The position numbers and the translations under genes are program-made. This document shows, one piece after another, positions 10,386-23,879 of a stretch of DNA of 64,000 nucleotides (the stretch's first letter is position 1; every line of letters starts with the position of its first letter). Source of the DNA: Sinomonas cyclohexanicum (GTDB taxonomy: Bacteria; Actinomycetota; Actinomycetes; Actinomycetales; Micrococcaceae); the NCBI RefSeq assembly GCF_020886775.1, contig NZ_AP024525.1, positions 4,216,001 through 4,280,000 of the forward strand. Direction: 5' to 3'. Below the pieces are notes generated by a model. That model worked only from the letters and a program-made list of their open reading frames with translations. It was not told the DNA's origin and ran no database searches.

Positions 10386-11105
10386 TCACGGGACGAGGAG
10401 CAGCTTGCCGGTGACGGCACGGGACTGCAGGGCTGCCTGCGCGCGTCCGGACTCGGCGAGTGGGAAGGTCCCGGCGATGCGTACCTTCAGCGACCCGTCG
10501 ATGACGGCGTCGAAGATCTCTCGGGAGCCCCATGAGCGCTCGTTCTGGTCCTGGAGGTAGTCGTCGATGGTCGGGCGGGTCACGTAGAGGGACCCATGGT
10601 GGTTGAGCCGCTGCAGGTCGAAGTCCGGCACAGCGCCGGAGGAGGCGCCATACAGCACGAGCATCCCGCGACTGCGCAGGGCCCTGAGCGACTCGTCGAA
10701 CGTGTCGCGGCCAACGGAGTCATAGACGACGTCGGCCAGGCGGCCCCCCGTTGCCTCCCGGACCCGCTCGGCGAAGTCTCCATACCCGACGAGGGCGACG
10801 TCGGCGCCCAGCGAGCGCGCGGCGTCGGCCTTCTCCTCGGAACCGACCAGGGCGATGACGGTGGCGCCCTGCTTCCTGAGCAGCTGGACCAGGAGGCCGC
10901 CGACCCCGCCCGCGGCGGCGGTGACGACGGCGACGTCGCCCTCCTTCGCCTTCGCGGCGTCGACGAGGAACGCGTCGGCGTACGTGCGCTCGGCCTGCGT
11001 CGTGGTGACGCGGTCGCCGACCGCGAAGTCCCCCACTTGAGCGCCGACGCCGAAGAGAACGCCCATCCCCTCTGTGCCGGGGGATGGGAGGCCGCTTCGC
11101 CTCAT
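10386..11105 (-). CDS. N-terminally truncated quinone oxidoreductase (MDR family)
   Basis: From the ATG at 11105 this reads 239 residues, whereas complete family members have about 320-330. The product begins inside the conserved GroES-like domain, at a segment resembling the PGxEGxGxV motif (SPGTEGMGVLFGVG), followed by DFAVGDRV. The whole NADPH-binding domain follows intact (VTAAAGGVGGLLVQLLRKQGATV). About 60-90 N-terminal residues, including the substrate-side part of the domain, are missing. The start forms an ATGA overlap with the end of the fumarylacetoacetate-hydrolase-family gene, which suggests a deletion that fused the remnant behind that gene. It may be a decaying paralog of the neighbour at 9197-10339. 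Confidence 0.75.
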   Translation of the reverse strand: MRRSGLPSPGTEGMGVLFGVGAQVGDFAVGDRVTTTQAERTYADAFLVDAAKAKEGDVAVVTAAAGGVGGLLVQLLRKQGATVIALVGSEEKADAARSLGADVALVGYGDFAERVREATGGRLADVVYDSVGRDTFDESLRALRSRGMLVLYGASSGAVPDFDLQRLNHHGSLYVTRPTIDDYLQDQNERSWGSREIFDAVIDGSLKVRIAGTFPLAESGRAQAALQSRAVTGKLLLVP

Positions 11106-11956
11106 GCCCGGCCCTGCATCCGGTGGCGCATCTCCCCGATGCCTTCGACGAACGTGACGAGCTCGTCGCCCGGGGCCAGGAAGCGCTGCGGCGCGCGGCC
11201 TACTCCCACTCCGGGCGGGGTTCCCGTGAAGATGACGTCCCCCGGCAGGAGCTCGGTGACCGCGGACAGCCGGGCAATGATCTCCGGCACGGAGAACACC
11301 ATGTCGGACGTGTTCCCCTTCTGGACCAGTTCGCCGTTGATGGAGCAGCCCAGCTCGATCGCGTCCGGGTCCTCGAACTCGTCGGGCGTCACGAGGACAG
11401 GACCCATGGGCCCGAAGCTGGCGAACGACTTCGCGAGGCTGTATTGGGGCGCCGGCCCCGAGGCCTGCATCGTGCGCTCCGAGAGGTCCTGGCCCGCCGT
11501 GACTCCGGCGACGTGGTCCCACGCGCGTTCGGCCGGGATGTCGCGGCCGCCCGTGCCGATGACGACGACGAGCTCGACTTCCCAGTCCACCGTCCCCGGG
11601 GGCAGGGCGACCGCACCGGTGGGGCCGGCGAGCGAGGTGGCGAACTTCGTGAACACCGTGAGGTCCTCGGGGACCGCGAGGGAGGCCTCCGCCGCGTGGG
11701 CTGCGTAGTTGAGCCCGATCGCGAACACCTGCCGAGGCTCGGGGGCAGGATTGCCGAACTCCTCCGGGGCGATGTCGGCGAGGCTCCTTCCCTCCTTGCC
11801 CTCGAGGCCGGCCGCAACCCGCAGCAGCTCGTCCCAGCGTCCGTAGCAGTCCTGGATCCGGGGGCTGAATCGGCCCTCGGTCCCCTCGGAGATGTCGACG
11901 GCGTGGCCCTGCCCGGTCACGAGCACGAGCCGGCCGGAAATGGTGGCGAGTCGCAT
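11102..11956 (-). CDS. Fumarylacetoacetate hydrolase-family protein
   Basis: This 284-residue protein has the FAH-superfamily barrel with QVFAIGLNYAAHAAE, the metal-binding DWEVELVVVIG (Glu-x-Glu), a later Asp in TAGQDLSERTMQ and the tail GTPPGVGVG. Such enzymes cleave or isomerise acyl-pyruvates and 2-oxo-hydroxy dienoates with Mg2+ or Mn2+; HpaG/HpcE of the homoprotocatechuate route is a relative. It sits between a 2-oxopentenoate hydratase gene and a truncated oxidoreductase in the large catabolic operon. Together with the hydratase, the HpaI-like aldolase and the aldehyde dehydrogenase it recalls the lower homoprotocatechuate pathway. The start at 11956 lies 8 bases after the hydratase stop. 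Confidence 0.92.
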   Translation of the reverse strand: MRLATISGRLVLVTGQGHAVDISEGTEGRFSPRIQDCYGRWDELLRVAAGLEGKEGRSLADIAPEEFGNPAPEPRQVFAIGLNYAAHAAEASLAVPEDLTVFTKFATSLAGPTGAVALPPGTVDWEVELVVVIGTGGRDIPAERAWDHVAGVTAGQDLSERTMQASGPAPQYSLAKSFASFGPMGPVLVTPDEFEDPDAIELGCSINGELVQKGNTSDMVFSVPEIIARLSAVTELLPGDVIFTGTPPGVGVGRAPQRFLAPGDELVTFVEGIGEMRHRMQGRA

Positions 11957-11964
11957 ACGTCCCC

Positions 11965-12750
11965 TCAGGCCGAGACGTCGAACTCGATGGCGCCCCAGCC
12001 CTCGAACGCGCCGGACCAGCGCCCGGCCTCAGCCATCGGGACTGCCTGGAGGCAGCTGCCGGGGAGGATGACCTGCCCGGGTTCGAACGCGACGTCGTAC
12101 GCGGCGAGGCGGTTGGTGAGCCACGCGACGGCGGCGAGCGGGTTGCCGAGGATGTTGCGCGTGTTCCCCGAGATGACCTCGCGGTCGTTGAAGGTCAGGA
12201 CCCCGCGCGTGCTGCTGAGGTTCAGGTCGGTGACCCGGCGCGGGGTGCCGCCGAGGAGGACTGCGCCCGTGGACCCGTTGTCGGCGAGGGTGTCAGGGAG
12301 GCCGATCGCCCAGTCCTTGACGCGGGAGTCGATGATCTCGATGGCCGGGAGGGCGTAGTCGATGGCACCGATGACGTCGGCGATCGTGGTGTTCGGTCCG
12401 GCGAGGCGGCCCTTGAGCACGAAGGCCGGCTCGAGCTCGACGAACGGCTCGATGAACGCCGAGCGCTCGAGGGAGGTGCCCTCGTAGGCAAACGAGCTCG
12501 CGAGCAGGTGGCCGTAGTCGGGCTGGTCGAGGCCGAACGCGTCCTGCATGACCTTGGCGATGTTCCCCAGCTTGTAGCCGACCAGGCGGTCCCCCTCGGC
12601 GAGGGCGTGCTGGACGTTGATCTTCTGGACCTCGAAGGCTGCGTCCGGGTCCAGGCCCGGCCACGTCTCGGTTGGGGCGGGGACCGGCTGCCCTTGGAGG
12701 CGGGCGGTGCGGAGGGTGTCCGCGACGGTCTCGAGGGTGATGGTGGTCAT
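11965..12750 (-). CDS. 2-keto-4-pentenoate hydratase family protein (HpaH/MhpD type)
   Basis: This 261-residue protein matches the usual length of the hydratase/decarboxylase branch of the FAH fold. It shows GYKLGNIAKVMQDAFGLDQPDYGHL near residue 65-85, FVELEPAFVLKG with the metal-binding acidic residues, and IEIIDSRVKDW. Family members add water to 2-hydroxypenta-2,4-dienoate or 2-oxohept-enedioate, or decarboxylate 4-oxalocrotonate. The ATG at 12750 has GGAACC just upstream. In the operon it lies between the aldehyde dehydrogenase and the FAH-family gene, consistent with a hydratase, aldolase and aldehyde-oxidation sequence after ring opening. Confidence 0.92.
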   Translation of the reverse strand: MTTITLETVADTLRTARLQGQPVPAPTETWPGLDPDAAFEVQKINVQHALAEGDRLVGYKLGNIAKVMQDAFGLDQPDYGHLLASSFAYEGTSLERSAFIEPFVELEPAFVLKGRLAGPNTTIADVIGAIDYALPAIEIIDSRVKDWAIGLPDTLADNGSTGAVLLGGTPRRVTDLNLSSTRGVLTFNDREVISGNTRNILGNPLAAVAWLTNRLAAYDVAFEPGQVILPGSCLQAVPMAEAGRWSGAFEGWGAIEFDVSA

Positions 12751-15383: not shown

Positions 15384-15911
15384 TCAGTTCTCCTTGAAGC
15401 TTCCGAAGCGGCCGCCGTGGAAGATGAGGGGGGCGCCGCTGCCGGGGGCCATCTCCAGGACGTTGGCGATAACAATGAGGTGGTCGCCGCCGGGCAGCTC
15501 GTGCCCGAGGGCGCAGTCGAACCAGGCCAGCGCGCCGTCGATGCGCGGGGCGCCCCACTGTGAGGCCGACCAGTCGACGGCGCTGAGCTTGTCCTCGCCC
15601 TTGGCGGACAGGGCCTTGCAGACGGGCTGCTGGCCGTCGGCCAGGAGGCTGACGCTGAACCGGCCGGAAGCAGCGATCTTGGGCCAGGACGTGGAACTGT
15701 GCATGACGCTGAACGTCACCAGTGCCGGGTCCATGGACAGGGAGGCGAACGTCCCGACGATCATCCCGTGCTGGGCCCCGGTGACCGGGTCGGTGGAGCA
15801 GATCGCCGCGACGCCGGTGGGGAGGTGGCGCATGACGGCGCGGTAGGTGTCCGAATCGATGGGACGGGCGACGCCGGCGTCGATGGGTCGGGCAATGGCG
15901 GGGGCGCTCAT
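15384..15911 (-). CDS. Flavin reductase, NADH:FMN type (first of a tandem pair)
   Basis: This 175-residue protein carries HLPTGVAAICSTD, HGMIVGTFASLSMDPALVTF, SWPKIAASGRFSVSLLADGQ and GGDHLIVIANVLEM, all typical of the flavin reductase domain that serves two-component monooxygenases. The ATG at 15911 overlaps the amine oxidase stop (ATGA), and the next reductase begins one base after its own stop. Two reductases in tandem within one operon that has only one obvious FMNH2-dependent monooxygenase is unusual. One may instead act as a coupled flavin-domain enzyme or serve an off-operon oxygenase. Confidence 0.93.
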   Translation of the reverse strand: MSAPAIARPIDAGVARPIDSDTYRAVMRHLPTGVAAICSTDPVTGAQHGMIVGTFASLSMDPALVTFSVMHSSTSWPKIAASGRFSVSLLADGQQPVCKALSAKGEDKLSAVDWSASQWGAPRIDGALAWFDCALGHELPGGDHLIVIANVLEMAPGSGAPLIFHGGRFGSFKEN

Positions 15912-17224
15912 GGCTGGTCCTCCTTCAGTTCTGCGTGGATGGCGCGGCTGGCGCTGAGGCCTGACTCGACGGCGCCGTCGAAGAAGCCGGCCCAGATGTT
16001 GGCGATGTCGCCGCTGGCAAAGTGCAGGCTGCCTTCGCTGGCCTGCTGGGCTGCGTGGTACTTGGTGAGCTGCCCGGGGCGCTGGATCTGCCAGGTCTCC
16101 TCCGCGTACGGGTCCGCGCCCCACGGGTGGCCGGTGGCCTCGAGGACCTCGAGGTCGTCGCGCCAGACCCGGACGGCTTCCTGGACTTGGGCGATGTCGT
16201 TGACGTCGATGCGGTTGGCGTCGGCCCCGAAGCCGACCAGGACGGCGTCGTCCTCGCCGACGAATTCGGTGCGGATCACGGACAGCGGCTTGTCCTGGGC
16301 GGAATAGGCGAAGAACGGCTTGATCGGGCCCCCTCCTCGACGGCCGACCCTGAGCCAGGCCTTCACGCCCTGGGACGCGGTGCGCTCCCGGCTGGGGGCG
16401 AGCTTGCCCTCGGACGGCGCGGGCTGGACGTCGAGCCTGTGCAGGATGTTCTGGGGCAGGGTGATGACGACCTTCCTGGCCGAGATCTCCTGGCCATCGC
16501 CGTAGGACACCGTGGCGCCCTGAGCGTCGTGACGGATCGCGGTGACGGGGGCTCCGAGGCGGATGTCGGCGTCCGTGTCTGCGGCGATGGCCTTCGGAAG
16601 GGTGTCATTGCCGTCCTTGATCCGGTAGATCGCCGAGGCCTCGTGCATGAGGTGCCAATGGCCTGAGGCGGCGGCGGTCCAGCGCAGGGCGTTGACGTAG
16701 GCGCAGTGGTGAAGGGGGGCGTTGAAGTGGCCCACCCAGGCGGCCTCGTTGGCGTTGCGCTCGTCCTCGGAGAGGTCCAGCTTGTCCAGCATCTCCTGGA
16801 GGTTGTACTGGTCCGCCTCGGCGAGGTTCTCGACCGTCAAGGGGGCGTCGGGGCGGGGCAGCCACTTCATCGTGTCCTCGAGGAGCCGGGTCATGCCCGG
16901 GTCGATGAGGGCCATGAAGTCGTCCAGATCGCCGCGGCGGACCTCATTGCCGGCGAGCCAGTAGGTCTCCTCCGACCGGGGCCCGCGGGAAACCTCGAGG
17001 CCGTAGCGGGTGACCTCGGCCCAGACGTGGGGCTGGGTCCAGTGGAGCCAGTTGCCGCCGAGCTCAAGGTGCTGGCCGAGGCGCGACTCGGTGTAGATGC
17101 GGCCGCCGAGGCGGTCGCGGGCTTCGAGGACTACGACCTTGTGGCCGCGGTTCCCGAGCTCGCGGGCGGTGATGAGGCCGGCGAGGCCGGCGCCGATGAC
17201 GACGACGTCAGTCTGTTCGGTCAT
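15908..17224 (-). CDS. Flavin-containing amine oxidase (6-hydroxynicotine oxidase-like)
   Basis: This 438-residue flavin monoamine oxidase has the FAD-binding VVVIGAGLAGLITARELGNRGHKVVVLEARDRLGGRIYT at the N-terminus, ELGGNWLHW as the second FAD contact and a C-terminal HFASGDIANIWAGFFDGAVESG. Its size and the KLDL helix region recall 6-hydroxy-L-nicotine oxidase and related secondary-amine oxidases of Arthrobacter, from memory of those proteins. It would oxidise a C-N bond of an amine with O2, giving an imine that hydrolyses to a ketone or aldehyde. Its position directly after the LLM monooxygenase suggests an N-containing, possibly cyclic, substrate for the operon. The start at 17224 lies 41 bases after the monooxygenase stop. 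Confidence 0.92.
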   Translation of the reverse strand: MTEQTDVVVIGAGLAGLITARELGNRGHKVVVLEARDRLGGRIYTESRLGQHLELGGNWLHWTQPHVWAEVTRYGLEVSRGPRSEETYWLAGNEVRRGDLDDFMALIDPGMTRLLEDTMKWLPRPDAPLTVENLAEADQYNLQEMLDKLDLSEDERNANEAAWVGHFNAPLHHCAYVNALRWTAAASGHWHLMHEASAIYRIKDGNDTLPKAIAADTDADIRLGAPVTAIRHDAQGATVSYGDGQEISARKVVITLPQNILHRLDVQPAPSEGKLAPSRERTASQGVKAWLRVGRRGGGPIKPFFAYSAQDKPLSVIRTEFVGEDDAVLVGFGADANRIDVNDIAQVQEAVRVWRDDLEVLEATGHPWGADPYAEETWQIQRPGQLTKYHAAQQASEGSLHFASGDIANIWAGFFDGAVESGLSASRAIHAELKEDQP

Positions 17225-17265: not shown

Positions 17266-18663
17266 TCAGCGTGCCGCGGCTGCGAGGTGCCTCGCGCGGT
17301 GTGCGGTGGCCGGGTGGGAGTCGAGCGTGCGCTTCTGACCGAAGAGCTTCTCGCGCAGGGTCACCGGCTCCTGCCCCTCCGCGCGGGCCGGCGAAACGAG
17401 TCCCTGCGCGCGGAGCACAGGCAGGGCGAGCTCGATGAACTCCTCCCAGCTGCCGGGCTTGGTGGTGTAGGAAAGGTTGACGCCGTCGATGTCGGCCTCG
17501 TCGCGCCAGCGGCGCAGCTCGGCGGCAACGGTCTCTGGCGAACCGACGATCGAGGCGCCCGTGCCGCCGACCGCGAGGAATTCGGCGATCTGGCGCGGGG
17601 TCCAGTCACGGTCCGGGTCGGCTTTGGAGAACATGTCCACCATGGACTGGCTCGCCTTGGTGCCTACCGAGCGCAGCGGAGTGTCCAGCTCGTACTGCGA
17701 CATGTCGACGCCGGTCCAGCCGCTGAATCGGGCAAGAATCCCCTCGACGGGCGCGTTCCCCACGGCCTTGCGGTACTTCGCCTGGGCCTCCTCGTCGGTG
17801 GGAGCGACCACGACGGTGAGCAGGATGACGATCTTGACGTCGCCCGGGTCGCGCCCGGCGTCGGCGACGGACTGGCGCACCTTGGCGGCCGTCCGCTTCG
17901 CGCCCTCGAGGTTGGTGCTCTGGATGAAGACCGCCTCGGCGTGCTTGCCTCCGAACGCCAGGCCCCGGGAGGAGGAACCGGCCTGGAACAGCACCGGCGT
18001 GCGCTGCGGGGAGGGCTCGCACAGGTGGAAGCCCGGTACGGTGAAGTGCGTGCCGGCGTGGTTGATCTGGTGCACCTTGGCGGGGTCGATGTAGGTGGCC
18101 GATGCGGCGTCGCGGACCACCGCGTCCTCCTCGAAGGACCCCTCCCACAGCTTGTAGACGACGTCCATGTACTCGTCGGCCATGTCGTAGCGCTCCTCGG
18201 GGGTGAGCTGCTGCTCCCGGCCCAGGTTGCGCGCCGCGGCCTCGGAGTAGGACGTGACGATGTTCCAGCCGATACGGCCGTTGGTGAGGTGGTCCAGGCT
18301 GCTGTACTTGCGGGCCAGGAGATAGGGCGGCTCGTAGGTTGCCGAGCACGTCACGCCGAAGGTGAGGTGCTCCGTCACCGCGGCCATGCCGCTGATCAGC
18401 ACCGTCGGATCGTTGATGGGGAACTGCGCAGCGTCGCGCAGGGCCGCGTCCCCGTTGCCGCGGTACACGTCGTGATAGCCGACGTTGTCCGCGAAGAAGA
18501 TCCCGTCGAAGCTCGCGTCTTCGAGCATCCGGGCAACGCCCGTCCAGTACTTCAGGTCGGTGTAGCGGTGGCCCTGATCGCCCTCGGCGCGCCAGGACCC
18601 GGATGTCAGGTGGGACGGGGCGAAGACGTCGAACGCGAAAAGGCTGAGGGGCTGGTTCTTCAT
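17266..18663 (-). CDS. FMNH2-dependent LLM-class monooxygenase (NtaA/SnaA/DszA family)
   Basis: This 465-residue luciferase-like monooxygenase belongs to the subgroup of nitrilotriacetate, EDTA, pristinamycin and dibenzothiophene-sulfone monooxygenases. Typical segments are the N-terminal FAFDVFAPSHLTSGSWR, FDGIFFADNVG, YLLARKYSSLDHLTNGRIGWNIVTSYSEAAARNLG and VLFQAGSSSRGLAFGGKHAEAVF. These enzymes take FMNH2 from a separate reductase and cleave C-N, C-S or ring bonds with O2. It is the first gene of the 18663-to-8079 operon and lies directly behind a strong promoter and a three-part operator. With two reductases and an amine oxidase following, an N-heterocycle or tertiary amine substrate is the best guess. 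Confidence 0.93.
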   Translation of the reverse strand: MKNQPLSLFAFDVFAPSHLTSGSWRAEGDQGHRYTDLKYWTGVARMLEDASFDGIFFADNVGYHDVYRGNGDAALRDAAQFPINDPTVLISGMAAVTEHLTFGVTCSATYEPPYLLARKYSSLDHLTNGRIGWNIVTSYSEAAARNLGREQQLTPEERYDMADEYMDVVYKLWEGSFEEDAVVRDAASATYIDPAKVHQINHAGTHFTVPGFHLCEPSPQRTPVLFQAGSSSRGLAFGGKHAEAVFIQSTNLEGAKRTAAKVRQSVADAGRDPGDVKIVILLTVVVAPTDEEAQAKYRKAVGNAPVEGILARFSGWTGVDMSQYELDTPLRSVGTKASQSMVDMFSKADPDRDWTPRQIAEFLAVGGTGASIVGSPETVAAELRRWRDEADIDGVNLSYTTKPGSWEEFIELALPVLRAQGLVSPARAEGQEPVTLREKLFGQKRTLDSHPATAHRARHLAAAAR

Positions 18664-18732
18664 GGCAGCGGTTCTTCCTTGGACTCGTGCCGGACAGTGC
18701 GACAGATCGTGCGATGAGGCTACGGGAGAGAC

Positions 18733-18785
18733 GTTCACGATTTGAACGTTGTGTTCAATTTAGATGTTGCTCAGATCACTGTCAA
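18733..18785 (-). promoter_or_regulatory. Promoter and three-half-site operator of the LLM monooxygenase operon (O1)
   Basis: Reading the minus strand there is a consensus -35 TTGACA (18785-18780), 17 bp, then a -10 TAAATT (18762-18757). Directly overlapping and following the -10 are three half-sites, TGAAC, GTTCA and TGAAC on the minus strand (18757-18753, 18747-18743, 18737-18733), each exactly 10 bp from the next. The inner pair extends to a 7-bp palindrome, ACGTTCA-N5-TGAACGT. Three half-sites one helical turn apart is the operator layout known for the IclR-family regulators PcaU and PobR of Acinetobacter. The position over the start point suggests repression. Confidence 0.75.
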
Positions 18786-18805
18786 GGGGGAATCCACCCT
18801 TGACA
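18780..18805. repeat. 9-bp inverted repeat carrying both divergent -35 boxes
   Basis: TGTCAAGGG (18780-18788) and CCCTTGACA (18797-18805) are perfect inverted arms around 8 bp. The outer six bases of each arm are the -35 element of one of the two divergent promoters (monooxygenase operon to the left, permease gene to the right). The symmetry may just reflect two back-to-back consensus -35 boxes, or it may be an additional shared protein-binding site. Confidence 0.6.
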
Positions 18806-18855
18806 CCGTCTGTGGCGCATGCCATATTTTTGACCACCACGTTCGAGGAATGAAC
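18800..18855 (+). promoter_or_regulatory. Promoter and three-half-site operator of the MFS permease gene (O2)
   Basis: A -35 TTGACA (18800-18805) is followed after 17 bp by CATATT (18823-18828). Immediately downstream are TGACC (18831), GTTCG (18841) and TGAAC (18851), again at exact 10-bp spacing and in the same order and orientation relative to transcription as in O1. Two of the three half-sites have a single mismatch to TGAAC/GTTCA. The site would sit over or just after the start point, as at the divergent promoter. Confidence 0.65.
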
Positions 18856-18943
18856 GCCCCGCAGTCCTCGTGAGCACCCCTCCCCTTCAGCCGAGTCACT
18901 TCGACCGGCACTCCAACCACGTTCGAGAAGCACGAGAACAAGG

Positions 18944-20299
18944 ATGTCCATCGTGAAGTCACCCACACTGTCTGCCCACCGGAGCGCGCTCGAGGCGCCG
19001 GCGGCACCGGATCCGCGCAAGCAGCGGTTCATCATCAAGCTCAGCGGCGTCATCGCCGGCGGCATGTTCATCGACGGGTTCATCCTCGGCGGCATTGGGC
19101 TCGTCATGCCCGCCATGACCGAGGGCCTCGGCCTGGACGCGCTCTGGCAGGGCCTCATCGGCGCCTCTGCCCTCATCGGCATCTTCTTCGGCGGGCCGCT
19201 CGGCGGCTATCTCGCGGACAAGATCGGCCGGAAGCCAATGTTCATCGTGGACCTGTCGATCTTCCTCGTCGGCTCCGCCGGGCAGTTCTTCGTCACCGAT
19301 GCGTGGCAGCTCTTCGCCATCCGCCTCCTGATGGGCATGGCAATCGGCGCCGACTACGCGATCGGCTGGCCGCTCATGGTCGAGTTCTCCCCGGCCCGGC
19401 TGCGCGGCAAGCTCATGGCGTTCCAGGAGGTCGCCTGGTACGTCGGCTACCTGCTCTCCTACGCGATCGGCTACTACATGTCCACGGGCATCCACGCTGA
19501 CTGGCGCATCATCCTCGGCATGAGCACGGTCCCCTCGCTCATCGTCTTCCTGCTCCGCCTCGGCACACCGGAGTCTCCGCGATGGCTCATCAGCAAGGGA
19601 CGCCGCGAAGAAGGCCTCGCGGTCGCCCAGGAGTACATGGAGGAAGCCGAGATCCGAGATCTCGCGAACGAGAAGCCCGTGACGCCAAGCTTCCGGAAGC
19701 TGTTCTCGCGTCAGTACATCAAGTCGACCACCTTCGTCTCCATGTACTGGGTCTGCAACGTCACGCCGTACTTCGCCATCGCCACCTTTGCGCCCATCGT
19801 GCTCGAGAGCCTCGGTGTCGAGGACGGCCTCGCGGGCGCCCTGCTACTCAACGGCGTCGTGGCAGGCGGCGCCGTGGCCGCGATGTTCCTCATCGAACGC
19901 GTCGGCCGCCGCAAGCTCGCCATCCCGCCGATGTGGATCAGCGCGGCGGCCCTCGTGGCCATCGGCCTCCTGGCCCATGTGTCCCCGATCATCATCCTCG
20001 TCAGCTTCATGACGTTCTCCTTCGCGAACGCCATCTCCACCGCGCTGACCGGTGTGTTCCCCGGAGAGGTCTTCCCCACGGAGATCCGCGGGGCCGGCGT
20101 CGGCTTCGCGACCGCCTTCTCCCGCATCGGTGCGGCGGCTGGAACCTTCGTCCTGCCGATGTCGGTGACCGCCCTCGGGGTCGGCGCGACCATGCTGATC
20201 GCCGCCGGCATCTGCGCCCTCGGCGCCATCATCTCCCAGTTCCTCGCACCCGAGACGACGGGTCTGAGCCTGAGCGACACCTCGGCCCCCATGGACTGA
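18944..20299 (+). CDS. MFS permease, sugar/aromatic-acid porter type
   Basis: This 451-residue transporter has about 12 membrane segments, GGYLADKIGRKPMF between helices 2 and 3, PESPRWLISKGRREEGL after helix 6 and an ERVGRRKL repeat of the motif in the second half. It resembles the sugar porter/YceI-type family rather than the MHS group. It is divergent from the catabolic operon and has its own copy of the operator, so it probably imports that operon's substrate. The ATG at 18944 has AAGG directly before it, which is tight; a GTG nine bases downstream (18953) would be better spaced and is an alternative start. A strong terminator hairpin follows at 20312. Confidence 0.92.
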   Translation: MSIVKSPTLSAHRSALEAPAAPDPRKQRFIIKLSGVIAGGMFIDGFILGGIGLVMPAMTEGLGLDALWQGLIGASALIGIFFGGPLGGYLADKIGRKPMFIVDLSIFLVGSAGQFFVTDAWQLFAIRLLMGMAIGADYAIGWPLMVEFSPARLRGKLMAFQEVAWYVGYLLSYAIGYYMSTGIHADWRIILGMSTVPSLIVFLLRLGTPESPRWLISKGRREEGLAVAQEYMEEAEIRDLANEKPVTPSFRKLFSRQYIKSTTFVSMYWVCNVTPYFAIATFAPIVLESLGVEDGLAGALLLNGVVAGGAVAAMFLIERVGRRKLAIPPMWISAAALVAIGLLAHVSPIIILVSFMTFSFANAISTALTGVFPGEVFPTEIRGAGVGFATAFSRIGAAAGTFVLPMSVTALGVGATMLIAAGICALGAIISQFLAPETTGLSLSDTSAPMD

Positions 20300-20311
20300 C
20301 CAGATGACGAT

Positions 20312-20349
20312 GAGGGGCGCCCTCCCGCACTGCGTCGGGAGGGCGCCCC
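20312..20349 (+). terminator. Rho-independent terminator after the MFS permease
   Basis: A near-perfect stem formed by AGGGGCGCCCTCCCG and CGGGAGGGCGCCCCT, with an 8-base loop, begins 13 bases after the permease stop. There is no T-run, as usual in high-GC actinobacteria. It separates the permease transcript from the aldolase gene at least partly. Confidence 0.8.
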
Positions 20350-20405
20350 TCGCCCGCGCCACCACCAGCGCACCGCAATCCGCAAAGGACGAAGGAAGGA
20401 AGAAC

Positions 20406-21224
20406 ATGAAGATCCACGGGGAAAGCGCCGTGCACAGCCCCCTGCCGGCGCCGCGCCTGACGCTGGGCGACGGCAGGGCCCACCTCGGCGCCTGGAGCAG
20501 CTTCCGCGACCCCGCGGCGGTGGACGTCCTCGCCGCCGAGGGATTCGACTGGATCTGCATCGACGGCCAGCACGGCGGAGCGGAGCTCTCCGAGTTCAAG
20601 GACCTCATCGACGCCGCGCACGCGTTCTCGGTACCGTCCATCGTGCGGGTATCCGGCCATGACCTCGGGGCCGCGGGCCGCGTGCTCGACGCCGGGGCCG
20701 GTGGACTCGTCTTCCCGACGGTCGAGGACCCGACCACCGCGGGGGCCCTCGTGGCCGCCTGCCGGTTCGCGCCCAGGGGGAAGCGCAGCTACGGCCCGAC
20801 CCGTCGCAGCCCGCGCTACCCGAAGCCCATGCCCGGCGACCCGCGGGAGGACGCGCTGTGCATCCTGATGATCGAGACGGCAGAAGGGCTGGCGAACCTC
20901 GACGGGATCCTCGCAACAGGGCCCGACGGGATCTTCGTGGGCCCATACGACCTGTCCCTGAGCCTCGGGGTATCGCTCGAGGAACTGACCACGGGCGGGC
21001 ACGCCGCCGTCCTGGCCGACATCGCGCGGCGGTGCACCGACGCCGGAGTCATCCCCGGCATCTACACGGGCGAGCCCGAGCTCTCCCGGAAAATGCTCGC
21101 CCTCGGATTCCGCTTCATGCCGGTGGCCTCCGACGGCGGCCTCCTCGCCCTCGCCGCACGGAGCGCGGTGTCGGCGTCGGCGAACCTGCCGGACCTGTCG
21201 GCGCCGAGCCTCGCGAACGTCTGA
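20406..21224 (+). CDS. HpcH/HpaI-family aldolase/citrate lyase
   Basis: This 272-residue class II pyruvate aldolase-like protein has the substrate-pocket IDGQHGGAELSEF, the metal-ligand Glu in LMIETAEGLANLDGI and the Asp in GPYDLSLSLG, as in HpaI/HpcH (2,4-dihydroxyhept-2-ene-1,7-dioate aldolase). It would split a 4-hydroxy-2-oxo acid into pyruvate and an aldehyde. The ATG at 20406 follows a strong GGAAGGAAG. It lies between the permease and the IclR gene and would provide the aldol cleavage missing from the divergent operon, after its hydratase and before its aldehyde dehydrogenase. Confidence 0.92.
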   Translation: MKIHGESAVHSPLPAPRLTLGDGRAHLGAWSSFRDPAAVDVLAAEGFDWICIDGQHGGAELSEFKDLIDAAHAFSVPSIVRVSGHDLGAAGRVLDAGAGGLVFPTVEDPTTAGALVAACRFAPRGKRSYGPTRRSPRYPKPMPGDPREDALCILMIETAEGLANLDGILATGPDGIFVGPYDLSLSLGVSLEELTTGGHAAVLADIARRCTDAGVIPGIYTGEPELSRKMLALGFRFMPVASDGGLLALAARSAVSASANLPDLSAPSLANV

Positions 21225-21226
21225 GC

Positions 21227-21267
21227 GCACGACGGCGGCCCTCGCCACCGGGGGCCGCCGTCGGTGC
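21227..21267 (+). terminator. Terminator hairpin after the aldolase gene
   Basis: The stem GCACGACGGCGGCCC pairs with GGGCCGCCGTCGGTGC (one bulged G) three bases after the aldolase stop. Its core GCACGACGGCGG recurs in at least three other terminator-like hairpins in this window. Confidence 0.7.
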
Positions 21268-21288
21268 CGCCAGCCTCAGCTCCGAAGG

Positions 21289-21313
21289 TGAACGCGCCGT
21301 TCGACAACTGAGG
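21289..21313 (+). promoter_or_regulatory. Three-half-site operator upstream of iclR (O4)
   Basis: TGAAC (21289), GTTCG (21299) and TGAGG (21309) are spaced exactly 10 bp apart, in the same order as O1 and O2. The first matches fully, the second has one mismatch and the third two. It lies 75-99 bases upstream of the preferred start of the IclR gene, which fits autoregulation. It is the weakest of the four copies. Confidence 0.5.
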
Positions 21314-21387
21314 AAAGGCCCTAGGATGGATCGGAAGTGACAAGGGGGGCAAGGGAGCCCCCGCAATCATCCGAACCGGGAGCGGAC

Positions 21388-22203
21388 ATGGCGCGGCGAA
21401 CCGAAGCAGCCGAGACACGGCCTGACAGCGAGGGGTCAGGCGCTGAAGAGACCCTCGACCTGACCAACAAGTCGGTGGTCAAGGCCACGGCGATCCTCCG
21501 CGAGCTCGGCCGCCATCGGCAGGGCATCACTGCGACAGAGGTCGCCCAGGCGGCGGGCATGACCCGCCCCACTGCCTTCCGCCTCCTCCTGACGCTGGAG
21601 CAGACGGGCTTCGTGGACAGGGTGGACAACCGCTACATGCTCGGATGGCAGATGGCCCGGCTCGGCAAGCTCGCGGACCCGTACACCGGCGTGGTCGCCC
21701 GCATCCAGCCCGTCCTTGACGAGTACGCCGCAAAGATCAAGGAGACGATGAGCTTCGCCATGATGCGGAGCGAGACGTCGTACGACGTGATTGCCGAGGC
21801 CTCCGGCTCGCGCTACCTGAACGTGTCCCACCTGTACGTCGGCGTCACGTACCCGGCGCACGCGAGCGCCACGGGGAAGGTCCTCCTGGCCGAGCTGAGC
21901 GATGACAAGATTGCGGAGGCGCTCCCCGCCAAGCTCGAACGCTTCACCAAGTCCACGATTACGAGCCGCGATGCGCTGATCCGGGAGGTGCACCGCGTCC
22001 GGGACCAGGGCTACGCGATCCTCGACGACGAGCTCGAGGAGGGGCTCTTCGCCATGGCCCGGGCGGTCCGGGATGCCGGCGGCGCCTTGGTCGGCATCGT
22101 CGTCGTCCAGGGTCCCACGCCGCGCTTCAAGACGGATCGGCTGCCCGAGACGGTGGACCTGCTCTTCCAGGCCTCCGACGAGCTCGGGAAGGCGCTCGCC
22201 TAG
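21388..22203 (+). CDS. IclR-family transcriptional regulator (local catabolic regulator)
   Basis: This 271-residue protein has an N-terminal winged helix-turn-helix (GITATEVAQAAGMTRPTAFRLLLTLEQTGF) and the IclR effector domain with HLYVGVTYPAHASATGKVLLAEL and GYAILDDELEEGLFAMARAVRD. The ATG at 21388 follows GGGAGCGG; an in-frame GTG at 21337 is also possible. It lies in the middle of a locus with four copies of a PcaU-like three-half-site operator, including one upstream of itself, and is the natural candidate to bind them. The effector is probably the imported substrate or an early intermediate. Its stop overlaps the stop of the convergent small gene by 4 bases. Confidence 0.93.
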   Translation: MARRTEAAETRPDSEGSGAEETLDLTNKSVVKATAILRELGRHRQGITATEVAQAAGMTRPTAFRLLLTLEQTGFVDRVDNRYMLGWQMARLGKLADPYTGVVARIQPVLDEYAAKIKETMSFAMMRSETSYDVIAEASGSRYLNVSHLYVGVTYPAHASATGKVLLAELSDDKIAEALPAKLERFTKSTITSRDALIREVHRVRDQGYAILDDELEEGLFAMARAVRDAGGALVGIVVVQGPTPRFKTDRLPETVDLLFQASDELGKALA

Positions 22204-22448
22204 GACGCCAGCGGCAGCGCGAGCGCCACGAGGCTCCCGCGCGACGGGTACTTCCACCGCACGAACTGCACGGGAACCCCTGCGTGCTCTGCAACGAGTG
22301 CATGGGTGACGGCGTCGGCGCCGAGCGTTCCCTTCACCTCCGCGACACACGCCGCCAGGACCGCGGACCTCCGCTCGTCCCTCGCGCGGAGGATCTCCTC
22401 GACGGGCCTGCCGGCCTTGCGCCTGGTCTTCTGACGCCAATACGTCAT
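22200..22448 (-). CDS. Small helix-turn-helix protein (82 aa), unknown function
   Basis: This protein is rich in Arg/Lys at its N-terminus, and residues about 45-75 (AVTHALVAEHAGVPVQFVRWKYPSRGSLV) look like the helix-turn-helix of TetR-type repressors, where a YxxFPSKxxLL motif is usual. The ligand-binding domain of TetR proteins is absent. The ATG at 22448 has AGAGGTGA at good distance. It follows the 57-residue gene by 34 bases on the same strand, and both are under operator O3. I do not recognise a named family. It may be a small DNA-binding modulator of the catabolic locus or a truncated TetR gene. Confidence 0.65.
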   Translation of the reverse strand: MTYWRQKTRRKAGRPVEEILRARDERRSAVLAACVAEVKGTLGADAVTHALVAEHAGVPVQFVRWKYPSRGSLVALALPLAS

Positions 22449-22482
22449 GTGCTCACCTCTGGCAGGTCCGGATCAGTCGGCC

Positions 22483-22656
22483 TCAGGCCGCGTCGGCTTC
22501 CTCGATGTACAAGCCCATCCACGGGCTGGAAGTCAGGGCACCCCAACGGTCACCGGGGACCTCGCGGGCGTCTGCGTCAGCGGTCCCGCGGCGCGGGGCC
22601 GCGAAGAAGCCGAACGTGCCGAAGGCGCTGGTCAGGATGCGGTGCATGGTGCTCAT
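22483..22656 (-). CDS. Small protein (57 aa) of unknown function under operator O3
   Basis: The coding stretch begins with an ATG at 22656, preceded by GAGGA at 6 bases, and ends at 22483. The N-terminal third is hydrophobic/aromatic (ILTSAFGTFGFFAAP), followed by an Asp/Ala/Arg-rich middle and a Trp-containing C-terminus (RWGALTSSPWMGLYIEEADAA). One short membrane-interacting segment is possible but it is not a classical signal peptide. No family is recognised. It is the first gene behind a promoter with the same three-half-site operator as the catabolic operon, so it is probably co-induced with it. Confidence 0.6.
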   Translation of the reverse strand: MSTMHRILTSAFGTFGFFAAPRRGTADADAREVPGDRWGALTSSPWMGLYIEEADAA

Positions 22657-22714
22657 GGGAGTCCTCGTCTCTCGGGCCCGGTGAGCCGCCGTTGGCTCCC
22701 CGTCGTGGCATATT

Positions 22715-22776
22715 TGAACGTGACGTTCACTTAATGAACATGCTTCTATTGTGTCTCGTCTCACTCCAGGGTGCAA
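22715..22776 (-). promoter_or_regulatory. Promoter and three-half-site operator of the small-gene pair (O3)
   Basis: On the minus strand a -35 TTGCAC (22776-22771), 17 bp and a -10 CACAAT (22753-22748) precede three perfect half-sites. On the plus strand these read TGAAC (22715), GTTCA (22725) and TGAAC (22735), at exact 10-bp spacing. The left pair extends to the palindrome TGAACGT-G-ACGTTCA. All three half-sites match the O1 motif exactly, although their order relative to transcription is reversed. This links the two small genes to the IclR-controlled locus. Confidence 0.72.
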
Positions 22777-22848
22777 GAGGCTCAGTCCAGAAGACAGGGA
22801 AGGATGACGCGTTGGGGTCCTTGGCGCCTGCGCTGCCGAATGCAGAAC

Positions 22849-22908
22849 GCCCCCGGTTGTGGAGAGTGCCCCCTTCATCCGAAGGGGGCACTCTCCACAA
22901 CCGGGGGC
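22849..22908. terminator. Perfect 28-bp inverted repeat, terminator downstream of lgt
   Basis: Two identical-complement 28-base arms (22849-22876 and 22881-22908) flank a 4-base loop ATCC. The stem includes CCCCCGG, TGTGGAGAG and TGCCCCCTTC. It lies 38 bases after the lgt stop on the minus strand and would fold into an extremely stable hairpin in either strand. Its perfection and length exceed an ordinary terminator, so it could also be a copy of a dispersed palindromic repeat. Confidence 0.75.
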
Positions 22909-22946
22909 AGACTCAGGCGAGGGCGCGTAACCGGCACCGGGACCGT

Positions 22947-23879
22947 TCAGTCCTCGGAGGGCTTCTCCTGGTCGGTTGGCTCCCCTTCGGCGCCGGCCCC
23001 CGGGCCGGCGGGCACCGCGGCCGAGGCGGGGTAGGCCGTCGACCGCTTGCGCCGAAAGGTGAGCAGGAATGCGATGGCGCCCGCAAGGAACAGCAGCCCA
23101 GAGACCCACGTGTTCACGCGCAGGCCGAGGATGAGGTTCGCGTAGTCGGAGCGCATGAGCTCGAATGCGAATCTGCCCGCCGTGTAGGCGGCGACGTACA
23201 GCGCGAACACGCTCCCCGCGCCGAGGCGGAAGCGCCGGTCGAGCCACAGGATCACGGCGGCGGTCACGAGGCACCACACGGATTCGTAGAGGAACGTGGG
23301 CTGGAAGTAGCCGATCACCACGGGGTTGCCGGCCAGGTCCGTCACGGCCTGGCCGGTGGCGGAGTCCATCTGGTGGATCTGCAGGCCCCACGGCAGGTCC
23401 GTCGGGTCGCCGTAGAGCTCATTGTTGAACCAGTTGCCCCACCGGCCGATCCCCTGCGCGATGAGCACCCCCGGGGCGACCGTATCCGCGAACGCGATGA
23501 ACGAGACCTTGGCGCGCCGGCACCCAATCCACGCGCCGAGCGCGCCGAGGGCGACGGCGCCCCAGATCCCGAGGCCGCCGTCCCAGATCGCGAACGCGTT
23601 CCACGGGTTCCTCCCGGGAAGGAAGTACAGCTCCGGATCGGTGATGACGTGGTAGATGCGGCCGCCGACAATCCCGAAAGGGACCGCCCACAGGCTAATG
23701 TCAGTGACCTGGCCCGGCAGGCCGCCGCGCTCCTTCCAGCGCCGCGAGGCGATCCACACTGCGACCACGATTCCGGCGATGATGCACAGGGCGTAGAAGT
23801 GGATGGTGAAGGGCCCGATCGGGAACCCGCTCACCGTCGGGGACGGGATGTACGAGGGCGCAGACAGCGTGGGACTCAC
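22947..23879 (-). CDS. lgt: Prolipoprotein diacylglyceryl transferase
   Basis: This 310-residue membrane protein has about seven hydrophobic segments and the Lgt signature GRWGNWFNNELYGDPTDLPWGL (about residues 140-160), plus the conserved VGGRIYHVITD. It transfers diacylglycerol from phosphatidylglycerol to the lipobox Cys of prolipoproteins, the first step of lipoprotein maturation, in the cytoplasmic membrane. The C-terminal tail after the last helix is Pro/Ala/Glu-rich and variable. I chose the GTG at 23879, which places the N-terminus just before the first helix; the upstream extension is Arg-rich and poor. No operon partner is evident. Confidence 0.95.
   Translation of the reverse strand: MSPTLSAPSYIPSPTVSGFPIGPFTIHFYALCIIAGIVVAVWIASRRWKERGGLPGQVTDISLWAVPFGIVGGRIYHVITDPELYFLPGRNPWNAFAIWDGGLGIWGAVALGALGAWIGCRRAKVSFIAFADTVAPGVLIAQGIGRWGNWFNNELYGDPTDLPWGLQIHQMDSATGQAVTDLAGNPVVIGYFQPTFLYESVWCLVTAAVILWLDRRFRLGAGSVFALYVAAYTAGRFAFELMRSDYANLILGLRVNTWVSGLLFLAGAIAFLLTFRRKRSTAYPASAAVPAGPGAGAEGEPTDQEKPSED

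Follow-up and report, generated by a model that had tools for sequence, protein, structure and literature searches.

What controls the catabolic genes in the window, the 64,000-nucleotide stretch of Sinomonas cyclohexanicum analysed here (contig NZ_AP024525.1, positions 4,216,001 to 4,280,000)? An element of three half-sites, TGAAC-N5-GTTCA-N5-TGAAC, occurs there in four copies, before a catabolic operon, a permease gene, a pair of small genes and an iclR gene. The question is whether these copies are operators of one regulator, whether the nearby IclR-family protein is that regulator, and in which sense it acts. Comparison with related genomes leads us to read the elements as operators of the IclR protein encoded at 21388-22203, most likely a repressor of the catabolic operon, the permease and the small-gene pair; we put the probability of this reading at about 0.88. 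The putative operators and regulator are as follows (window coordinates).

18733..18757, minus strand: operator of the catabolic operon, whose first gene encodes the monooxygenase; perfect match, about -7 to +18 in the usual numbering, conserved with its promoter
18831..18855, plus strand: permease operator; 2 mismatches, conserved in the promoter alignment
21289..21313, plus strand: weak iclR operator; two good half-sites, the third degenerate
22715..22739, plus strand: operator of the small-gene pair; perfect match, reads GTTCA-TGAAC-GTTCA towards the genes, conserved
21388..22203, plus strand: IclR-family regulator presumed to bind the operators; PF09339 and PF01614

Mismatches to the pattern were counted over the half-sites. 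The window scan returned all four elements exactly where an initial annotation had placed them by eye, at 10-bp spacing. Those at 18733-18757 (minus) and 22715-22739 (plus) are perfect; the one at 18831-18855 (plus) has 2 mismatches (TGACC and GTTCG) and the one at 21289-21313 (plus) has 3 (GTTCG and TGAGG). At a limit of 3 mismatches the window holds six matches (two of them are overlapping second registers), against a mean of 0.39 and a maximum of 3 in 100 dinucleotide shuffles. The annotation had named a genome scan as a check on uniqueness, and the answer differs by copy. The perfect copies at 18733-18757 and 22715-22739 have no equal in the whole genome (4,413,566 bases); the permease operator is one of five 2-mismatch matches; and of 61 matches with 3 mismatches, three are in this cluster but 58 lie outside it. 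The three better copies stand out genome-wide, and the copy before iclR, taken alone, is at chance level. The departures of the permease operator (TGATC or TGACC, and GTTCG) recur in many relatives.

Position relative to the promoters bears on the sense of regulation. A scan for sigma-70-like promoters covering 18600-23100 reported two, which are divergent and each match the consensus at 10 of 12 positions:

18757..18785, minus strand: catabolic-operon promoter, TTGACA-N17-TAAATT; its -10 overlaps the operator by a single base, 18757, at which the operator starts; conserved, spacer 17-18
18800..18828, plus strand: permease promoter, TTGACA-N17-CATATT; ends 2 nt before the operator; conserved

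Since these operators begin at a near-consensus -10 or 2 nt behind it and cover the start, the regulator is most likely a repressor. The annotation had all three best copies directly following a -10, which is right for the monooxygenase and permease but loose for the small genes. Their promoter was not reported by the scan of this range; the likely one, TTGCAC-N17-CACAAT, has similar boxes at the same place in the aligned relatives, and in the window the operator starts 8 nt behind its CACAAT box. There the operator is also reversed relative to transcription, on which the annotation is silent; at a related locus (L107; loci carry L numbers and genomes G numbers) it stands directly after the -10 and has the other half-site order.

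Relatives were found first by homology of the IclR protein alone. Ten loci obtained in this way, window excluded, have a monooxygenase ortholog: L021, L022, L023, L102 (as L024), L103 (as L025), L092, L093, L095, L096 and L097. In nine of these ten, the 150 bp upstream of the monooxygenase contain an operator with at most 2 mismatches: none in L021, L022, L023, L092, L093 and L097, 1 in L102, and 2 in L103 and L096. The divergent region was then aligned in 12 rows, the window and 11 relatives (L092, L095, L096 and L104 are not included, and rows L098, L099, L100 and L105 were chosen for the exact sites in their genomes). Among the best-conserved parts of the region between monooxygenase and permease are the two operators and both -35/-10 pairs. 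Only L105 departs from the TTGACA and TAAATT boxes, in both of them; the other 11 of the 12 rows retain the two boxes, 17 or 18 nt apart. Conservation of the half-sites at orthologous promoters, another check proposed in the annotation, is thus borne out. A fixed helical phasing between the two divergent operators was considered and dropped: they are 98 bp apart in the window, 109 in two relatives and 119-123 in the others, a phase spread of several bases.

The form of the element was controlled on a site table of 21 loci from 19 genomes (386,863 bases; L106 and the 30 short loci L027-L056 were left out). It holds 78 matches with at most 2 mismatches, 69 once overlaps are removed, where a Markov simulation expects 0.85. 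The 59 other permutations of the half-sites gave at most 5 matches (median 0 over all 60), and 35 other spacer pairs (3 to 8) at most 9. Columns outside the search pattern are also constrained in the 69 non-overlapping sites: a purine at position 6 in 66, a pyrimidine at position 10 in 66, and a purine at position 26 in 61. The last of these points to a third half-site that is recognised in the same way as the other two. The consensus, tTGAACRYNRYGTTCAwwwwwTGAACR, has the three alternating half-sites at 10-bp spacing of a three-box IclR operator. Several sites can be read in two registers (e.g. L099 9171/9181), and we considered an operator of four half-sites as the general form; this was rejected, a fourth half-site with at most 1 mismatch being present upstream in only 4 of the 69 sites and downstream in 1.

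Exact matches also go with the regulator. In 395 genomes of the family there are 52 of them, in 35 genomes; the reversed pattern has 12. After seeing the 52 matches we divided them into two classes: 23 have the form TGAACC-N3-GGTTCA, and the other 29, in 15 genomes, are of the window's class. A close ortholog of this IclR protein (E <=1e-90) is carried by 13 of those 15 genomes, accounting for 27 of the 29 matches. The 20 genomes with only the GGTTCA class have none at E <=1e-80; 19 of them have no match even at 1e-40, and the twentieth (G021) has a 44% identical paralogue at 3.9e-65. Fisher's test on 13/15 against 0/20 gives p 7e-8, and among 149 genomes an exact window-class site is found in 5 of 8 with the ortholog (E <=1e-80) against 2 of 141 without it (2e-6); these p values are guides only, the genomes being related and non-independent and the classes post hoc.

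The GGTTCA class (TGAACC-N3-GGTTCA-N5-TGAAC) stands beside another IclR gene. In all 20 loci fetched (among L027-L056) a different IclR paralogue, 22-27% identical, is present; three further matches of the class are not among these loci. Comparing 18 window-class IclR proteins with 16 from the 20 GGTTCA loci, we find R, P and F at residues 60, 61 and 64, near the recognition helix, in 18/18 of the former and K, A and L in 16/16 of the latter. These residues are candidates only, because the two classes differ without overlap at 28 of the 67 aligned positions. Base 6 of the operator (G/A against C) and residues 60, 61 and 64 could be part of a specificity code that separates parallel three-box IclR circuits in one bacterial family. 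By eye, the gene adjoining the GGTTCA-class site is CoA-transferase-like in L033 and permease-like in L051.

PcaU and PobR act as activators. The best NCBIfam model for the regulator here is that of the PcaR/PcaU/PobR subfamily (TIGR02431), and three-box sites are described for PcaU and PobR (PMC8222616), so that a protein of their kind might aid RNA polymerase at these same sites in the presence of an inducer. We consider this unlikely: the operators lie at or just after the -10 and over the start site at two divergent promoters, promoters so close to the consensus should hardly need help, and the TIGR02431 score of 155.5 bits is under the cutoff of 284.75, for which reason we do not call the protein PcaU or PobR. 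The kinship drawn in the initial annotation therefore extends to the architecture of the operator but not to the protein, whose membership of the IclR family is itself clear from both domains (PF09339, 55.3 bits, cutoff 22; PF01614, 102.9 bits, cutoff 24).

That another regulator, such as a second IclR protein, binds the sites and that this iclR gene is nearby by coincidence seems to us very improbable. Several IclR proteins do appear to use the design: the paralogue beside the GGTTCA class is one, L022 has a second, 32% identical IclR gene adjoining its operators, and in the remaining two window-class genomes (G110 and G140) the exact site lies within about 200 bp of a third IclR-like kind, 26-29% identical to the window-class IclR. 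Against this stand the presence of the present ortholog in 13/15 window-class genomes and 0/20 GGTTCA-only genomes, and its being the sole IclR protein among the 19 window proteins scanned for domains. The idea that the matches are mere chance or low-complexity repeats has one point in its favour, the chance-level standing of the fourth copy by itself, and as a whole is scarcely credible next to the excess in the window over its shuffles. For the three best copies it is ruled out by the sites of the relatives, the promoter alignment, and the permutation and spacing controls.

Certain observations weigh against the operator reading, or limit it. In the tenth monooxygenase locus, L095 (G105), the same half-sites occur only in a version whose first spacer has 6 nt. 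L096 has two sites between monooxygenase and iclR, with 2 mismatches each, which fall outside the promoter alignment. L094 (G006, a 54% ortholog), which like L026 came from the search by IclR homology, lacks a monooxygenase ortholog over the stretch covered and carries two 1-mismatch sites between permease and aldehyde dehydrogenase. An IclR ortholog is present in L026 and L101 and no site was found in the stretches examined, nor, in L026, a monooxygenase ortholog. Eight genomes were fetched for their exact matches (two of them, G378 and G356, were also found by homology), and the 69-site table is thus partly selected, the 9/10 count being unaffected. Finally, the 3 mismatches of the iclR copy are matched by 60 other genome positions, and among 20 orthologous iclR genes, searched at up to 3 mismatches over 300 bp upstream, 10 have no site.

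This last result divides the claim of the annotation that the weakest copy belongs to the regulon: an in-line counterpart precedes iclR in 6 of the 20 orthologs (L021, L022, L023, L099, L100 and L102), but half have none. Three others (L092, L096 and L104) have a site shared with a divergent monooxygenase, and L105 has a 3-mismatch site in the opposite direction. Of the six in-line sites, three have TGAAA as their third half-site and the remaining three have TGACA, TGAAG or TGGGC. In the window the site lies upstream of CCTAGGATGG, which contains the likely -10, and CCTAGGATGG is near-identical in the six relatives aligned. Self-control of iclR through the weak site is plausible here, not general.

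As a working model of the repressor reading, the IclR protein would recognise three TGAACR half-sites in alternating direction, which, being 10 bp apart, all face about one side of the helix. Once bound, it would cover the -10 and transcription start at the catabolic operon and the permease and so block RNA polymerase, until a substrate or intermediate of the pathway released it. The third strong site would control the small-gene pair, and iclR itself is probably under mild self-control, here and in some related genomes, through the weaker site, whose third half-site is degraded. We infer binding, repression and release by an inducer from the sites, promoters, conservation and co-occurrence with the regulator described above.

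The architecture itself is known. The main text of Suvorova and Gelfand 2021 (PMC8222616) records three-box sites for PcaU, PobR and HmgR, gives predictions of such sites in 32 of 181 IclR ortholog groups (199 regulators), and states that PcaU of Acinetobacter requires the third box for binding. The sites here resemble the Acinetobacter PcaU/PobR operators in having an inverted box pair plus an outer direct repeat, and differ from them in the core, which in those motifs is of the GTTCG/GTCCG type (PMC8222616), in overlapping -10/+1, which suggests repression, and in a regulator under the subfamily cutoff. Set against the motif groups of the same paper, one box pair here fits group 2 (TGRAACA...TGTTYCA) and the other group 1 (GKTYC...GRAMC); a word search of its main text returned neither Arthrobacter nor TGAAC. 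A precedent for repression from such a position is GylR of Streptomyces clavuligerus, likewise an actinobacterial IclR-family repressor, described as binding immediately behind the -10 in its own promoter (PMC9732521). It differs in that its site has an 18-bp palindromic core and glycerol use is what it controls.

The small genes behind the operator at 22715-22739 are:

22483..22656, minus strand: 57-aa protein with a C-terminal PWxGL motif; P45, W46, G48 and L49 invariant in a 5-row alignment
22200..22448, minus strand: 82-aa stand-alone TetR-like helix-turn-helix (HTH) protein, no ligand domain; 7-row alignment, predicted model with pLDDT 81.4

Homologues of the 82-aa protein at E <=1e-17 are found in five of 390 genomes (G000, G038, G346, G365 and G370), and the close ones have 79-105 aa (n=5). 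Counting L021 and L022, there are seven loci, and six of them (window, L021, L022, L099, L100 and L107) have an operator of at most 1 mismatch upstream of the gene. In L107 (G038) the gene is about 13 kb from iclR and the operator is still upstream. The seventh, L106 (G346, 45%), has no operator, and its genome has no close IclR ortholog (best 31%). Across 297 genomes of the order, a profile of the protein matches four at 1e-8, including the window's; the matches in the other three are in frames of 259-339 aa.

For the 82-aa protein the prediction is a TetR-type helix-turn-helix that lacks a ligand domain. TetR-type regulators lead a fold search of its model against the PDB (probability 1.00, best E 0.018 and none <=0.001, TM 0.63 over 56 columns). 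TetR_N is its only Pfam hit, below the cutoff, and the best hit for the three homologues tested (12.7, 17.0 and 13.6 bits, cutoff 24); in longer relatives (E 3e-6 to 2e-5) TetR_N is above the cutoff in 3/3 tested. The likeness to the TetR family consists in the predicted fold and in these longer relatives. The C-terminal ligand-binding and dimerisation domain is absent; the chain ends after the HTH in the window and in close relatives, so we call the protein TetR-like and not a TetR regulator proper. The open-access literature searched yielded nothing on stand-alone TetR-type proteins.

The 57-aa protein has no Pfam or NCBIfam match at E 0.1. Homologues occur in L021, L022 and L099, with a diverged one in L107 by eye, the P, W, G and L of the motif being invariant; in L100 and L106 no counterpart was recognised. 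Possible roles of the peptide are binding to the stand-alone HTH or to the IclR protein, so as to tune the pathway, or a signalling function. That the pair forms a new regulatory module (a sensor-free TetR-like HTH and a co-expressed 57-aa peptide, released by IclR), existing alongside a specificity code in operators and residues, is a tentative idea which we think rather doubtful. A structured 5' leader on the small-gene mRNA is unsupported (z 0.07), although a GAGCC...GGCTC-like stem recurs similarly in three relatives. Upstream of the small-gene promoter, at 22849-22908, two 28-bp arms form a perfect inverted repeat around a 4-nt loop. It is not among the terminators given by the promoter/terminator scan, and an 18-base piece of its arm has no second genome match at up to 2 mismatches.

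The genes of the pathway are:

17266..18663, minus strand: luciferase-like FMN monooxygenase of the NtaA/DmoA family, first gene of the operon; TIGR03860 505.5 bits (cutoff 279.7); nearest solved chain 6ak1, a dimethyl-sulfide monooxygenase
15908..17224, minus strand: flavin amine oxidase; PF01593; solved relatives are amine oxidases, including 6-hydroxynicotine oxidases
15384..15911, minus strand: flavin reductase 1; PF01613
14834..15382, minus strand: flavin reductase 2; PF01613
14421..14837, minus strand: SnoaL-like protein; PF07366
12789..14369, minus strand: aldehyde dehydrogenase; PF00171; best NCBIfam model HpaE (TIGR02299), 114.8 bits, far under the cutoff of 638.35
11965..12750, minus strand: HpaH/MhpD-type hydratase; TIGR02312 184.9 bits, under the cutoff of 351.5; no Pfam match at E 0.001 (query without the first codon)
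11102..11956, minus strand: fumarylacetoacetate-hydrolase-family protein; PF01557
18944..20299, plus strand: major facilitator superfamily (MFS) permease; PF00083/PF07690
20406..21224, plus strand: HpcH/HpaI-type aldolase; PF03328

Solved relatives, family models and the literature did not lead to a substrate assignment. The operator provides a ready assay for the inducer of this monooxygenase/amine oxidase/aldolase cluster.

While the three-box architecture is as already described (PMC8222616), the set of genes under it is new. Neither the regulon, the operator nor the small-gene pair was met with in the open-access literature searched, and the supplementary tables of PMC8222616 may hold this ortholog group. 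New in detail are the second operator class beside a different IclR paralogue and the small-gene pair behind the operator in six of seven loci. What had been a pattern seen by eye is now a defined predicted regulon: its regulator, consensus and target promoters can be named, and it extends over several genera within a single actinobacterial family. Two operator classes beside two IclR paralogues make a natural case in which to compare how three-box IclR sites are distinguished, and the small-gene pair adds an unstudied component to such a circuit.

Some further sites were noted in passing. In the two genomes with the third IclR-like kind, exact three-box sites (L113 position 1759 and L114 position 1798) stand directly behind a TATATT box. 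Four weaker IclR matches (L017, L018, L019 and L020; 39-44% identical) were inspected over 1.5-kb flanks only, where L019 has a 1-mismatch site and the other three have none. At L019 3213-3247 two 1-mismatch three-box sites overlap, about 1 kb from the second IclR gene of G099, 41% identical, and this further paralogue may use the same design. The permease-side operator is retained in L100 (7622) before a different MFS transporter, 29% identical to another MFS protein of the window. Exact operators also lie near a small membrane-like protein, alike by eye in two genomes (L023 9351 and L108 5227), which is perhaps a further target.

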